A DNA stretch of 22,566 nt, from the IMG/VR virus record IMGVR_UViG_3300007351_000059, positions 1-22,566 of that record; one strand, given 5' to 3'. The DNA is from a virus. Positions within the stretch are counted from its first letter, which is position 1, and each line of letters opens with the position of its first letter. The notes under the pieces were generated by a model. It worked only from the letters and a program-made list of their open reading frames with translations, made no database searches and was not told where the DNA came from. Shown one piece after another: positions 15,950-22,566 of this stretch. The translations under genes and the position numbers were made by a program.

Positions 15950-16420
15950 TCACCCGCTTAGGAGGCTGGCAAGCTTGCTTTGCTTTTCCGGACCTTTCGG
16001 ATTCACCATTCCGACACGATCGGCAGGAGATAGCCCGAATTTGCTTAGATATGTAGACATCAAAGCCATGTACTTTTGGGCAATTACCACTTGCGGGACC
16101 TGCTGTATGTATCCGGATGTGGTCTTAAAAACGGTATTGTGCCTGCTCATAAATTCTTCTGCCTCTCTCCATCGCGCGTATGCTTGGCAGTATGCCGCAA
16201 GTGCGGTTGCATCGACTTCCGTTAACAGTCCGTATTCCTCCAGCTTCGGCACAATGGCTTTCCATTCTTTTTTTGCATATTTGTGCAGCCAGTTCGGGCA
16301 TTTTGGGGCCATTGGTTTCGGTTTCCATTCGTTTGTCGGGAGTGGTCGCTTCCCCGGATTGCCTTCCAATATTTTTAGTTCTGTGGGCTTGCGTGGTCTA
16401 CCCTGCTTTCGTCCTGTCAT
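15950..16420 (-). CDS. terS: terminase small subunit, P27 family, 156 aa
   Basis: ATG 16420 with GAAGGAAGG upstream. It starts MTGRKQGRPRKPTELKILEG, followed by NPGKRPLPTNEWKPKPMAPK: the 'G-R-x-x-K-P...L-K-x-L-x-G-N-P-G-K-R' opening of P27-family small terminases. Helical residues about 45-135 (YAKKEWKAIVPKLEEYGLLT; YMALMSTYLSKFGLSPADRV) follow. It recognises the packaging site and regulates the large subunit, with which it forms a two-gene unit. Confidence 0.93.
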   Translation of the reverse strand: MTGRKQGRPRKPTELKILEGNPGKRPLPTNEWKPKPMAPKCPNWLHKYAKKEWKAIVPKLEEYGLLTEVDATALAAYCQAYARWREAEEFMSRHNTVFKTTSGYIQQVPQVVIAQKYMALMSTYLSKFGLSPADRVGMVNPKGPEKQSKLASLLSG

Positions 16421-16653: not shown

Positions 16654-17406
16654 TTATGCCGATACAAGATGTAGATGTTTTTTTAAATCATTCTTGATGT
16701 AGTACTTTTTCCCGAGCTTTTCCAGTCTGTTCACAATTTCATAGGCAAATCTTTCCCAGTTGATTTCTTTGTCTGGCTTAAACCGACTGACCTTGCCGAC
16801 TTTGTACAGGTCTACATACTCATGTGTAGCGTCCAGTAGTCGAAACACTTCTTCATCGTTAAGGACCGGCTCGAAAGAAACCCATGTTTCTATGCCAGCA
16901 GCCTTCGCTTTTTTGACAGTTTCTATTCTATCAAATGGAACCGCTGCTTGTGGTTCGTAGTCCAGGCTTTTATAAGTGCTCATAAAAGTCAGTGTTGTTG
17001 CGAAAGCATCTCCAGGTTTATAAAGGTCGAAGTCCCTTCTTGCACGGTTTCCGGCTTTCGTCAGCACCTGAAACGGAATATTGTAAAGTTTGAATAATCC
17101 AAGGGCTTCGCGGGTTAGTTGCAGGTCCGAGTCAATGTCTTGATATGGATCTCCTATAAAACTCAAAAGTATTCTTTTACCAGCAAATTCGCTTTGCCAA
17201 TATCCCTTGCAGTCTCTTTCGAGTTTGTCAAGTAAACCCTGTCTCGGTTTTGTTTGCGTATAAAATTCTTGTCTGTCGCGTTTCATACAATCAGGGCAGT
17301 AGCAGTATTTACAAGAAAAGTTGCATGAATTATAGATATTTAAAGCAAGGTCTGAATATTCCCTGGCCCGTCCTGCAGGTTCATAAACAACTTTCAGTTT
17401 ACTCAT
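16654..17406 (-). CDS. radical SAM enzyme, SplB/COG1533-like, 250 aa
   Basis: ATG 17406 has an AAGGAGGT site and overlaps the 54-aa gene by 8 bp. The radical SAM cluster motif is C28-x3-C32-x2-C35 in NIYNSCNFSCKYCYCPDC, with extra Cys at 37 and 40. Later segments (RILLSFIGDPYQ, about residues 78-89; IPFQVLTKAGNRARRDFDLY; IETWVSFEPVLNDEEVFRLL) match the TIM-barrel pattern of SplB-like enzymes often annotated as phage radical SAM proteins. There is no SPASM domain. Its substrate is unknown. It lies in its own promoter-terminator cassette between DNA-modification genes and terminase, so DNA, tRNA or peptide modification are all possible. Confidence 0.85.
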   Translation of the reverse strand: MSKLKVVYEPAGRAREYSDLALNIYNSCNFSCKYCYCPDCMKRDRQEFYTQTKPRQGLLDKLERDCKGYWQSEFAGKRILLSFIGDPYQDIDSDLQLTREALGLFKLYNIPFQVLTKAGNRARRDFDLYKPGDAFATTLTFMSTYKSLDYEPQAAVPFDRIETVKKAKAAGIETWVSFEPVLNDEEVFRLLDATHEYVDLYKVGKVSRFKPDKEINWERFAYEIVNRLEKLGKKYYIKNDLKKHLHLVSA

Positions 17407-19390: not shown

Positions 19391-19762
19391 TTACTTTACT
19401 TTGTTACCAAACCCTCCATCTTCCATTGCAGTTTTAATATCATGATGCTTTCTGCATAATGGTTGCCAGTTGCTTTCATCCCAAAATAAATCCACGTTGC
19501 CTTTATGAGGGACAATGTGGTCGACAACAGTTGCAGGCTCAATATGCCCTTCTTTTTGACATTCAATACATAATGGGTTTTTTTGAAGAAAAATCAATCT
19601 TGCTCTTTGCCAACGTGCATCATATCCTCTTTCCGCAGCACTTCCCCTTCTTTCATCCTGCCTCCGCTGCTCCTGTTTGCGATGGCGGTCGCAGTAGCCA
19701 GACGTAACCAATTGTGGACATCCCGGGTATCTGCATGGCCGCATTGCTTGCATGGCCGACAT
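19391..19762 (-). CDS. phage HNH endonuclease, 123 aa
   Basis: I choose ATG 19762 (preceded by AGAAAGGA at good spacing) over a TTG at 19786. Residues 10-27 (CRYPGCPQLVTSGYCDRH) and C65/C68 with C103/H106-H107 give zinc-ligand pairs. The HNH core is VVDHIVPHKGNVDLFWDE and NWQPLCRKHHDIKT (about residues 79-111), with the D-H and N...H residues present. Small HNH proteins beside terminase genes help head-full or cos cleavage in HK97-like phages. Here it stands about 3 kb upstream of terS, separated by the accessory genes. Confidence 0.9.
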   Translation of the reverse strand: MSAMQAMRPCRYPGCPQLVTSGYCDRHRKQEQRRQDERRGSAAERGYDARWQRARLIFLQKNPLCIECQKEGHIEPATVVDHIVPHKGNVDLFWDESNWQPLCRKHHDIKTAMEDGGFGNKVK

Positions 19763-19786
19763 GGGCGTCAATCCTTTCTGCAACAC

Positions 19787-19816
19787 AAAAGCCCCGGTTC
19801 AATTGCCTCCGGGGCT
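19787..19816 (-). terminator. hairpin between the late promoter and the HNH gene
   Basis: Perfect 8-bp GC-rich stem AGCCCCGG/CCGGGGCT (19790-19797 with 19809-19816), then U4 on the minus strand. It lies downstream of the promoter at 19882, so it may act as an attenuator of late transcription. Confidence 0.6.
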
Positions 19817-19881
19817 CTCGAAGTGAGGTTGCTATAACGCGCCGAAGCACTTTTTTATTCGATAGTTCTTCCATTGGCACC

Positions 19882-19939
19882 ATTATAGCACTTATTTGTG
19901 CACAGGAAAAGTGCATGGTTTGTGCTCGGTATTTGTGCA
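19882..19939 (-). promoter_or_regulatory. probable late promoter with three GCACAAA repeats
   Basis: An extended -10 TGCTATAAT lies on the minus strand (TATAAT 19887-19882) with no good -35. Upstream are three direct GCACAAA copies (19895-19901, 19919-19925, 19932-19938), of which the outer two share the 10-mer TGCACAAATA. A poor -35 plus upstream repeats fits an activator-dependent promoter. The regulator gene ends at 19944, next door. Confidence 0.65.
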
Positions 19940-19943
19940 TCAA

Positions 19944-20528
19944 TCAAATAACGTCTGCCCCATACAATCTTACCATAATTCGCTGCAAAAGCTTATTTTT
20001 ATGCCGCCTCACAGTGCTTTCATCACAGTACATTTTCTCTCCTATTTCCACATCCTTCATGCCGTCAAAGTACTTATATTCGACAATCATATAATATTCA
20101 TCATCCTTGACAGCATTTAAGGCGTAATTAATCTCGTCAATCTCAGCCTGGTCCCGTTTGATTTTTCTTTTAAGACTTTCGATTCTTGCTTGCTGAATCT
20201 CTTGTGGAGTCAGTCGTATTCCAGAGTTTTCAGAAAACTTAACCATGTCTTTTGACTTCTCCGAAAAAAACTCTCTCTCCAGATCCTGAATATCAAGTGT
20301 ATACTTCTGTATGTTCTCATATAACTCAGGATAAGAGTAAAGCCTTCTTTCCGTCTGCTTAAAATAATTTTTAATCTCCTGGCACCTTTTCTCGTAGCCG
20401 GAGGCGACTGCTTTTTTTAGTGCATCTTCTATTCCCTTCAGTATTCTATCAACAGCCTTATCAACCAAAGTATTAATAAAACCTCTGATTCCTGTTTGCT
20501 TTTCTTTTACTTGAGTTTTCTTACCCAT
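19944..20528 (-). CDS. ArpU / sigma-70 region 4-like late transcription regulator, 194 aa
   Basis: ATG 20528 with a strong AAAGGAGGG site. The first 130 residues are charged and mostly helical, probably coiled coil. The C-terminal helix-turn-helix (about residues 156-184, MKDVEIGEKMYCDESTVRRH) resembles the ArpU family and sigma region 4, with the preceding YYMIVEYKYFDG matching 'I-I-x-x-x-Y-x-x-G'. Such proteins often close the early region and switch on the late operon. The GCACAAA repeats downstream are a plausible binding site. Confidence 0.8.
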   Translation of the reverse strand: MGKKTQVKEKQTGIRGFINTLVDKAVDRILKGIEDALKKAVASGYEKRCQEIKNYFKQTERRLYSYPELYENIQKYTLDIQDLEREFFSEKSKDMVKFSENSGIRLTPQEIQQARIESLKRKIKRDQAEIDEINYALNAVKDDEYYMIVEYKYFDGMKDVEIGEKMYCDESTVRRHKNKLLQRIMVRLYGADVI

Positions 20529-20898
20529 GATGACCCTCCTTTAAATCTTTAAGTATTTGTAACGTATTTTGTAACGTCTTGTAACGCCTTGTAACGGTCC
20601 TTGTAACGTACTCAAACCCGCTTGGCTCTAAGATGTAACGATTGTAACGGTATTTCCTGTATAGCACCCCTATATATATAATTTTTATTGTCTTATTTTT
20701 GTCTTTTTCCTCGCGCGCGCGTATGTATCTCTGTAGGAAAAAGCGTTATAAACGTTACAAAATCTTATAAGTATTGATACTATTATGTTTTAAGGTTTTT
20801 TTAAAACGTTACAACAACGTTACATCATCGTTACAAACGTTACACTTTTACGTTACAAACATATATTTTTGTTGCAAATGTTACCGTTTTTTATTTTT
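20529..20898. other. candidate replication origin: opposed GTAACG iteron arrays
   Basis: This 370-bp stretch has no gene. On the plus strand GTAACG begins at 20559, 20571, 20581, 20591, 20603, 20635 and 20644; the inverse CGTTAC begins at 20753, 20807, 20818, 20829, 20838 and 20851 (plus CGTTAT at 20744). Most spacings are 9-13 bp, about one helical turn. The shared form is TTGTAACGt. Between the arrays is AT-rich DNA, TATATATATA at 20671-20680, and a 9-bp inverted repeat (CTTTTTCCT 20703-20711, AGGAAAAAG 20735-20743) enclosing a (CG)5 run. Adjacent to the replication ATPase gene, it resembles phage and SaPI iteron origins; operators are the alternative. Confidence 0.7.
20656..20667 (-). promoter_or_regulatory. 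possible promoter for the late regulator
   Basis: Minus-strand GTGCTATACA (TATACA 20663-20658) resembles the extended -10 of the late promoter (GTGCTATAAT) but lacks a clear -35. The left GTAACG array would lie just downstream of its start point, so bound protein could repress it. Confidence 0.3.
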
Positions 20899-22527
20899 TT
20901 ACATGATAAATGGATTATGCTTTATATAATCATCTATGTCATCATATCCATTTTCCGCCTCGCTTTTTTCGCTTTTATCATTACTCTCTTCTTGCAAAGT
21001 TCCTGAAAACGTGGGAATATTTGCTTTAAGTTTTTTTAAGTCAATTATCAGACATTTTATAGATTTGCTTGTTGTCGATCCTATATCAAACAGTCTCACC
21101 GCTCTATCATTATCTATAAAAAAATCACTCCGCCGAACTTGAGTCATAAAGTCGCGCTGCGATTGTAATTCGGTTTTTGTTTTTGCGCAATGCTCTTTTG
21201 CCCGCTCAAAGCAGCGGTTAGCACAGAGTGCAAGTTCATCGGTATCCCTTATTTTTTTGTAATGAACACCATCAATCAATACTCCTATATCAGCAAGTCG
21301 GTCGAAAAACTCAAGCGTATTAATTACATCCGACTTTGGCTCCTGTCCTTCATAAATGTCAGCTTTCAATTGTTCAATCGTTTTGTTTAAGATTTTGTCT
21401 AGTGACATGGATATATTCTCGTTCTTGAAAGCCCTGGACACTAAGCTCAGTCCGGTGCAAACAACAGCGATCCCGCTACGGATGCGTTCATCGTAAACAG
21501 ATGAGAGCTTATTATAATAAGCTTTATGCCATTCAATTAACTTGTTTTCATCAATAAACAGCGCAGTCTTCAATAATAAAAACCCAAACTTCTCAAGCAA
21601 TTTACGGTTGCATTTCAGTTTCAAAAACCCTTCCGCATGAGGTTTTGAATCCTTTTTTGACAATATAAGTTGCATCGACCGCTCTTTTACTGCTGTTTCG
21701 TGTGCGGGACTGCCTTCTCCTAATAACATTATCGGGGTTCGATATGGGTAATTGATTAGAACCTGTTCAGTTGTCCCTCGCTGGCCTTCTTGCCTGTCAT
21801 AAGAATTTCTCAGTAGTTCTGATATCTCTCGAACAATCCAATCAGGTAATTTTTGCGGCTTATATTCGCCGATTACGTATGGAACGAAATTGCTTGCCGC
21901 TGCGTTTTTCATTGCAGAAAACCGAGTAATCTGCCCCGCTGATGCCGGTTGTCCATCCATACCAAGAATCGGCATTATAATGTTTTCTGCTGTTTCGGAC
22001 TTACCACTGCCGGCTTCGCCAATGATAAGCAGATGCGGATGCTTGATTCGTCCTGCTTTCCATAGTTTTTCCCTGATAAACAGCGAAGCCGTCCAGCCGA
22101 TGACGGTTCCGGCAATGCCTAGTTTGTTGAAACTGAATAGTGAATCAAATAATTCTAAAAGTTCACCTTTTTGCATAGTTTCAGCCTTTAATAAATCAGT
22201 CTTGCCCCCATATGTGGAAACCGCCATGCTGTCTACCTGATTCATACTGCTGTCTATAATCCTATCTTGCGTTGCAAAAAGCCACTGATTGTTTTTATGC
22301 ACAAAACCTGTATATGTAATTCCCTGTATTCTCGGAAAGCTTTCTTTTAGCAGCAGCGCTTTGACACCTTCCAACTCTGTATCATGCCCGTTAAAAACAA
22401 GCAACTCTCCTAAAGCTTTTTTGAATGGGATTGTAGATGTAAAAGCTTTAATGTCAATATCCCGGATACATGAACCTGTTAAGCTTTTTATTTCAACGGT
22501 CAAGATGCTATCATGCTCATACTGAGT
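20899..22527 (-). CDS. replication ATPase/helicase-like protein, N-terminus missing
   Basis: About 542 residues remain; the frame enters from the contig end. The apparent GTG start at 22542 lies in adapter sequence, so its first five residues (MLFRS) are not real. A Walker A motif GEAGSGKS is at 21997-22020 with KSETAENIIMPILG following; a candidate Walker B is FVPYVIGEYK. Later ERSMQLILSKKD may carry the arginine sensor. This layout fits DUF927 or VapE/primase-type phage helicases whose missing N-terminus is often a primase or zinc domain. The C-terminus is acidic. The candidate origin lies immediately downstream. Family assignment is tentative; ATPase is firm. Confidence 0.75.
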   Translation of the reverse strand, partial: TQYEHDSILTVEIKSLTGSCIRDIDIKAFTSTIPFKKALGELLVFNGHDTELEGVKALLLKESFPRIQGITYTGFVHKNNQWLFATQDRIIDSSMNQVDSMAVSTYGGKTDLLKAETMQKGELLELFDSLFSFNKLGIAGTVIGWTASLFIREKLWKAGRIKHPHLLIIGEAGSGKSETAENIIMPILGMDGQPASAGQITRFSAMKNAAASNFVPYVIGEYKPQKLPDWIVREISELLRNSYDRQEGQRGTTEQVLINYPYRTPIMLLGEGSPAHETAVKERSMQLILSKKDSKPHAEGFLKLKCNRKLLEKFGFLLLKTALFIDENKLIEWHKAYYNKLSSVYDERIRSGIAVVCTGLSLVSRAFKNENISMSLDKILNKTIEQLKADIYEGQEPKSDVINTLEFFDRLADIGVLIDGVHYKKIRDTDELALCANRCFERAKEHCAKTKTELQSQRDFMTQVRRSDFFIDNDRAVRLFDIGSTTSKSIKCLIIDLKKLKANIPTFSGTLQEESNDKSEKSEAENGYDDIDDYIKHNPFIM

Positions 22528-22566
22528 AGATCGGAAGAGCACACGTCTGAACTCCAGTCACCGATG
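22528..22566 (+). other. Illumina TruSeq adapter contamination
   Basis: From 22528 the sequence reads AGATCGGAAGAGCACACGTC and continues as the TruSeq read-1 adapter, then CGATG, which matches the start of index 2 (CGATGT). It is a library artefact joined to the true end at 22527. Confidence 0.97.

Follow-up and report, generated by a model that had tools for sequence, protein, structure and literature searches.

Towards one end of the IMG/VR virus record IMGVR_UViG_3300007351_000059, analysed here from position 1 to 22,566 (the window, 22,566 nucleotides), a gap between two genes holds two arrays of a short repeat that face each other on opposite strands. One of the flanking genes codes for an ATPase and the other for an ArpU-like regulator. 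This raises the question of what function the arrays serve and which protein reads them. Very probably, the region is the replication origin of a tailed phage of the Clostridia type and belongs to the origins that work with a self-loading helicase. A replication origin had been put forward in the original prediction, and it is the most likely reading in view of the fold match of the neighbouring ATPase to initiator helicases and the recurrence of the array downstream of distant homologues. Such an origin is of the SaPI/Cch kind, a type already known. The virus is one of gut bacteria, and the best matches of its large terminase (~50%), found in phages of Blautia, other Lachnospiraceae and Syntrophomonadaceae, suggest a host group of the Clostridia type. 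For an uncharacterised phage, a likely origin is identified in this way and its helicase is linked structurally to the initiators of SaPI and SCCmec elements.

The iteron arrays and the core between them

The region singled out originally coincides exactly with the gap from the ArpU-like gene to the ATPase stop codon (Table 1). A recount confirmed the 13 exact copies of GTAACG/CGTTAC, seven on the + strand and six inverted, which together span 20559-20856, the outermost exact copy lying ~40 bp from the end of the helicase gene. The seven copies in the 22.2 kb outside the array lead to an expectation of 0.12 copies inside it (Poisson P ~1e-22), and the window total of 20 copies compares with a maximum of 12 in 100 dinucleotide shuffles of the whole window. 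Successive copies are spaced by 12, 10, 10, 12, 32 and 9 bp in the left array and by 54, 11, 11, 9 and 13 bp in the right array. The claim that the iterons lie on the same face of the helix holds, because the two arrays display phase coherence at 10.5 bp (R 0.89, P ~0.004 and R 0.80, P ~0.02, respectively). The repeated unit is TTGTAACG rather than TTATCCACA-like boxes, which sets the region apart from DnaA-type origins. Mirror symmetry of the iteron positions about one centre was considered and dropped, as its five pairs were equalled by 416 of 2000 shuffles of the spacing order.

The centre had been described as holding TATATATATA, a perfect 9-bp inverted repeat and a (CG)5 tract, and all three elements were located between the arrays. 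An AT-rich, easily melted stretch beside the iterons, as is typical of SaPI/Cch-type origins, is present and would constitute the unwinding element. The proposal of a Z-DNA core is not supported. Relatives usually keep only 4-8 bp of CGCG, mostly as ACGCG or CGCGCG, and not a long alternating purine-pyrimidine tract; the archaeal virus CGphi46 has a longer alternating tract, but this is G+C-rich. The 9-bp hairpin around (CG)5 was rejected as a shared element, since relatives do not keep it consistently. The cumulative GC skew, which had been suggested as a check, is uninformative at this locus because the skew is negative throughout the window, with no turn, and the phage sequence continues for only 1.6 kb past the array.

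Table 1. Positions of the arrays, the core elements and the flanking genes in the window
Feature	Position	Strand	Remarks
ArpU/RinA-like late transcription regulator	19944-20528	-	Far side of the array, context only; start codon at 20528
Intergenic region	20529-20898		370 bp, from the ArpU-like gene to the ATPase stop codon (20899)
Left iteron array	20557-20649	+	7 copies, 6 of 7 being TTGTAACG and one ATGTAACG; starts 20557, 20569, 20579, 20589, 20601, 20633, 20642; exact GTAACG starts 20559, 20571, 20581, 20591, 20603, 20635, 20644
25-nt inverted repeat, 84%	20634-20658 and 20735-20759		Arms contain the inner iteron pairs
Origin core (predicted)	20650-20743		Between the inner iterons; inner exact copies ~109-111 bp start to start, on opposite strands
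Least stable 40 bp of the whole window	20670-20709		Includes TATATATATA at 20671-20680; putative unwinding element
Perfect 9-bp inverted repeat CTTTTTCCT / AGGAAAAAG	20703-20711 / 20735-20743		Encloses the CG tract
(CG)5 tract	20712-20721		Matches the CGCG element of relatives
Right iteron array	20744-20858	-	6 copies CGTTACA(A/T/C) and near-copy CGTTAT at 20744; exact CGTTAC starts 20753, 20807, 20818, 20829, 20838, 20851
Outlying degenerate copy TGTTACC	20879-20885
Cch/SaPIbov1 Rep-type initiator helicase, C-terminal part	20899-22527	-	Walker A GEAGSGKS at 21997-22020
Predicted winged-helix C-terminal domain	21040-21261	-	Putative iteron reader
Illumina TruSeq adapter and following bases	22528-22566		Adapter at 22528-22561; contig end, not biological

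The neighbouring helicase and its distant relatives

Sequence libraries returned weak P-loop matches and one phage family of unknown function for the ATPase. Pfam detected no D5/DUF5906 domain in the window protein, and phmmer found no match for it in the PDB. A structure model that combined the window protein with 25 viral homologues reached a mean pLDDT of 84. Its best match is SCCmec Cch (5dgk; Z 23.7 over 436 residues, rmsd 5.0), together with SaPIbov1 Rep (8tch; Z 21.1 over 418 residues, rmsd 5.3); the next-best matches are MCM proteins, with Z 15.0 over ~250 residues. The alignment with Cch and SaPIbov1 Rep spans nearly the whole model, the C-terminal region included, at a sequence identity of only 12-13%. 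Both folds are those of self-loading initiator helicases, and the window ATPase is modelled as one. Its C-terminus is predicted as strand-strand-helix-helix-strand-strand, which is consistent with a winged helix.

The comparison with SaPIs drawn in the original prediction is apt, because SaPIbov1 Rep and SCCmec type IV Cch share their fold with the ATPase. The iteron origin of SaPIs sits directly downstream of the initiator gene rep (PMC7581432). In the window, the arrays (20557-20858) likewise lie directly downstream of the gene end at 20899, and the likeness to the SaPI origin is one of published position. The window system differs in that it is found in a phage and that, in full-length relatives, the helicase is fused in the same polypeptide to an N-terminal NrS-1-like PrimPol with its HBD. 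The window protein may also have had a PrimPol domain. The N-terminus of the ATPase had been described as lost; it is indeed missing, but as an artefact, because the contig ends in sequencing adapter. The public record includes this read-through into adapter, which makes 22542 an artificial start of the ATPase ORF. A fragment of a glycine-rich, collagen-like protein is encoded at positions 3-707, at the opposite end of the contig, and a radical SAM protein gene (16654-17406) lies between the small terminase and ParB-like genes.

Relatives of the ATPase occur in 11 of 391 genomes from the class of a clostridial seed genome, at 25-38% identity. Arrays with a GTWAC core, of the TGTAACTA, AAGGTAACAA and TGTTACC types, stand directly after the gene in nine of these loci, and homologues at 28-35% identity have GTWAC arrays just past the stop codon. 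A single-sequence search for the ATPase in viral contigs returned nothing; a profile search of viral contigs gave 50 homologue loci, 27 of which are non-redundant. Within the 300 bp after the stop codon of these 27 loci, GTAAC/GTTAC is enriched 10.3-fold, TATATA 10.7-fold and ACGCG 4.5-fold, with two control pentamers at 0.8-0.9-fold. The motifs are common, not universal, with GTAAC/GTTAC present at 15 of the 27 loci and ACGCG at 22. The densest repeat array of a locus lies at the 3′ end of the gene in 15 of 19 loci (named phages and the window) and in 34 of the 50 viral homologues. Under a strict test of the non-redundant loci, eight of 27 have all their best arrays at the gene 3′ end (P 4e-4) and 19 do not; no array was detectable at homologue loci L512, L515, L517, L549 and others. 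It had been stated that an array absent or unrelated in close relatives would speak against an origin; this did not happen, as the array recurs immediately 3′ of the genes for distant homologues.

The exact TTGTAACG array is known only from this window, because no homologue above ~38% identity was found in the viral contigs and the 391 genomes, and a nucleotide search with positions 19500-22530 against phages returned nothing. The exact TTGTAACG triple pattern was also not found in the 391 genomes. Raw counts of TGTAACG triple arrays were not used as proof: the control GCAATGT is also very abundant (mostly as period-12 repeats, probably in coding sequence), and 56 loci in viral contigs were returned for a second control.

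The predicted C-terminal winged-helix domain is pointed to as the iteron reader mainly by the pair L472 and L482, which occur in one genome. Their proteins are 95.5% identical in the AAA+ region and 91.8% in the middle, with 58.6% in the C-terminal domain, and their iterons have no hexamer in common (TGTTACC and AAGGCACAA). It is because the two are alike except in this domain, while their iterons differ, that the domain is the candidate. In pairs with 75-90% AAA+ identity, the C-terminal domain is 83% identical where the iteron is shared and 58% where it is not; the middle region of the same pairs also differs (79% and 65%), and only seven of them are non-sharing. Pairs of lower AAA+ identity have no C-terminal difference between iteron-sharing and non-sharing.

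It may be envisaged that the MCM-like initiator helicase binds TTGTAACG through its C-terminal winged-helix domain. The iterons on each side, about one helical turn apart, would gather one hexamer, and two facing hexamer assemblies would form around the core. These assemblies would open the AT-rich duplex at 20670-20709 and, loaded in head-to-head orientation, would give rise to bidirectional replication. The PrimPol domain, part of the same polypeptide in full-length relatives, could then prime.

Known origins and other possible roles for the array

Annotated phage origins offer a further comparison. The Streptococcus thermophilus phage Sfi21 (AF115103) has a 302-bp origin, or phage inhibitory sequence, annotated directly downstream of its primase gene; nine AGTAAC copies, distributed over both strands, surround its AT-rich core. 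It differs from the window in its D5/DUF5906-type helicase, its 77-bp core, the lack of CGCG and the use of AGTAAC instead of TTGTAACG. Given the name phage inhibitory sequence in the Sfi21 record, origin fragments could serve as decoys against phages in fermentation. In the Lactobacillus phage A2 (NC_004112), the annotated rep_origin overlaps the 3′ end of the primase gene and contains eight iterons, four each way, around a TATATATATA core. The A2 iteron is ACGGGA, the core gap is 78 bp, and the primase matches the relatives of the window protein in the N-terminal PrimPol part only. The window has its arrays in the position of the Sfi21 and A2 origins, directly after the primase-helicase gene, whereas its initiator is closest in fold to Cch and not a D5/DUF5906-type SF3 helicase. 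The window origin would work like those of Sfi21 and A2 but is classed as SaPI/Cch type. The layout had been considered unusual and of an undescribed kind; this does not stand, as opposed arrays around a TATATA core are already present in the annotated A2 origin and in most relatives.

The Nitratiruptor phage NrS-1 carries 11-13 GTTACACTT-type copies on both strands, over ~310 bp directly after its PrimPol-helicase gene (gene 28). Its helicase is of the SF3 type (PMC7102993), and the array overlaps the next annotated gene. GTAAC-type arrays are found at the same place in phi105, NrS-1, LP-P111 and the archaeal virus CGphi46.

The array could have a double role, as an origin at which the bound initiator would also repress the ArpU-like gene or set the time of its transcription, and so couple replication to late expression. 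Autoregulation by initiators at their iterons is well known in plasmids, and no terminator is evident between the helicase and ArpU-like genes. Such a role is nevertheless unlikely, as the promoter scan identified no promoter and the gene beyond the array differs in the relatives checked (it is VRR-NUC in L471 and in several named phages, and other genes take this place in the rest).

Improbable, too, is the idea that the repeats are template recognition sites of the PrimPol and not duplex binding sites of the helicase. The relatives do carry an N-terminal NrS-1-like PrimPol with HBD, and the recognition sequence of the NrS-1 polymerase, TTTGGTTA (PMC8718748), has its sole exact copy in the 37-kb genome inside the iteron array that follows the polymerase gene (L492, 17198-17205). 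This single-copy count in the NrS-1 record conflicts with the two TTTGGTTA copies reported in PMC7102993. A function at the origin has been suggested by the NrS-1 authors for the recognition sequence, but not for the array as such. Furthermore, the NrS-1 polymerase primes efficiently at GTG sites too, and the PrimPol blocks of L472 and L482 are mostly 93-97% identical while their iterons are different. The window record itself stops short of the PrimPol region.

It is very improbable that the array is an operator or promoter of the ArpU-like gene, forming a late switch bound by a phage regulator, perhaps the ArpU-like protein. Short repeats are bound by many phage regulators, and the array extends almost to the ribosome-binding site of the ArpU-like gene, ending ~30 bp short of the start codon. 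However, promoter-like sites occur at chance level in the promoter scan (3 against 2.2 expected), with none on the - strand between the arrays and the ArpU-like gene. In the relatives checked, the array keeps its position at the helicase gene's 3′ end when the next gene differs, and the iteron changes along with the helicase C-terminus. That these relatives have different genes beyond the array also counts against an ArpU-like partner as the repeat binder, which the original prediction had allowed.

Least probable of all is a role in packaging, with the small terminase binding the array as a cos or pac site. Among the matches listed in other viral contigs, small terminases do make up 7 of the 130 proteins close to TGTAACG arrays, and in NrS-1 the terminase gene is not far from the array. 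The small terminase gene of the window (15950-16420), however, is ~4 kb distant, the Sfi21 cos site is annotated ~6 kb from its origin array, and the position of the array tracks the helicase gene.

Layout across origins and the GTWAC core

With the array read as a replication origin, its layout can be set beside that of other loci. The largest gap within each array was measured and the strands of the flanking iterons were scored, the hexamer differing per locus. In 30 of 35 loci, the two iterons that border the core have opposite orientations. Most Cch-type loci have a gap of 96-120 bp; in named phages with other primase-helicases it is mostly 71-89 bp, NrS-1 (109 bp) and L462 (99 bp) being exceptions. 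Because the measure takes the largest gap and a different hexamer per locus, the layout is a pattern to test and not proof. No description of it was found in the open-access literature, and as a layout shared across these loci it is apparently unreported.

It is tentatively proposed, with more doubt than assurance, that the origins of phages with self-loading primase-helicases share this undescribed layout. They would have iterons on opposite strands at a family-specific distance (~96-120 bp in the Cch type, mostly 71-89 bp in others), set by the size of two facing hexamers, around a TATATA core that is joined by CGCG in the Cch type. The iteron sequence would change with the C-terminal domain, and the GTWAC core would also recur next to initiators of unrelated types (DnaB and Phage_rep_org modules, D5, PrimPol and an archaeal virus). 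Testable rules follow as to where origins may be sought near primase-helicases, the spacing for loading two helicases and the domain that reads the iterons.

TGTAACG arrays were also observed inside or beside unrelated replication-module genes, namely Phage_rep_org_N, DnaB, AAA_25, DUF1376, PrimPol and Rep_OBD (L029, L108, L165, L235 and other viral and genome loci); in L235, the array is translated as NVTQ peptide repeats. At the control loci L286-L461, which were fetched for other motifs, the commonest hexamer arrays that do not overlap the queries include GTAACA, GTTACA, AGTTAC and CGTTAC, a pattern that would fit a preference of phages for GTWAC as iteron core. Cyanobacterial contigs, many of them from Microcoleus/Tychonema (L167-L285), contain TGTAACG with a strict 9-bp period, and these are apparently simple tandem repeats unrelated to origins.
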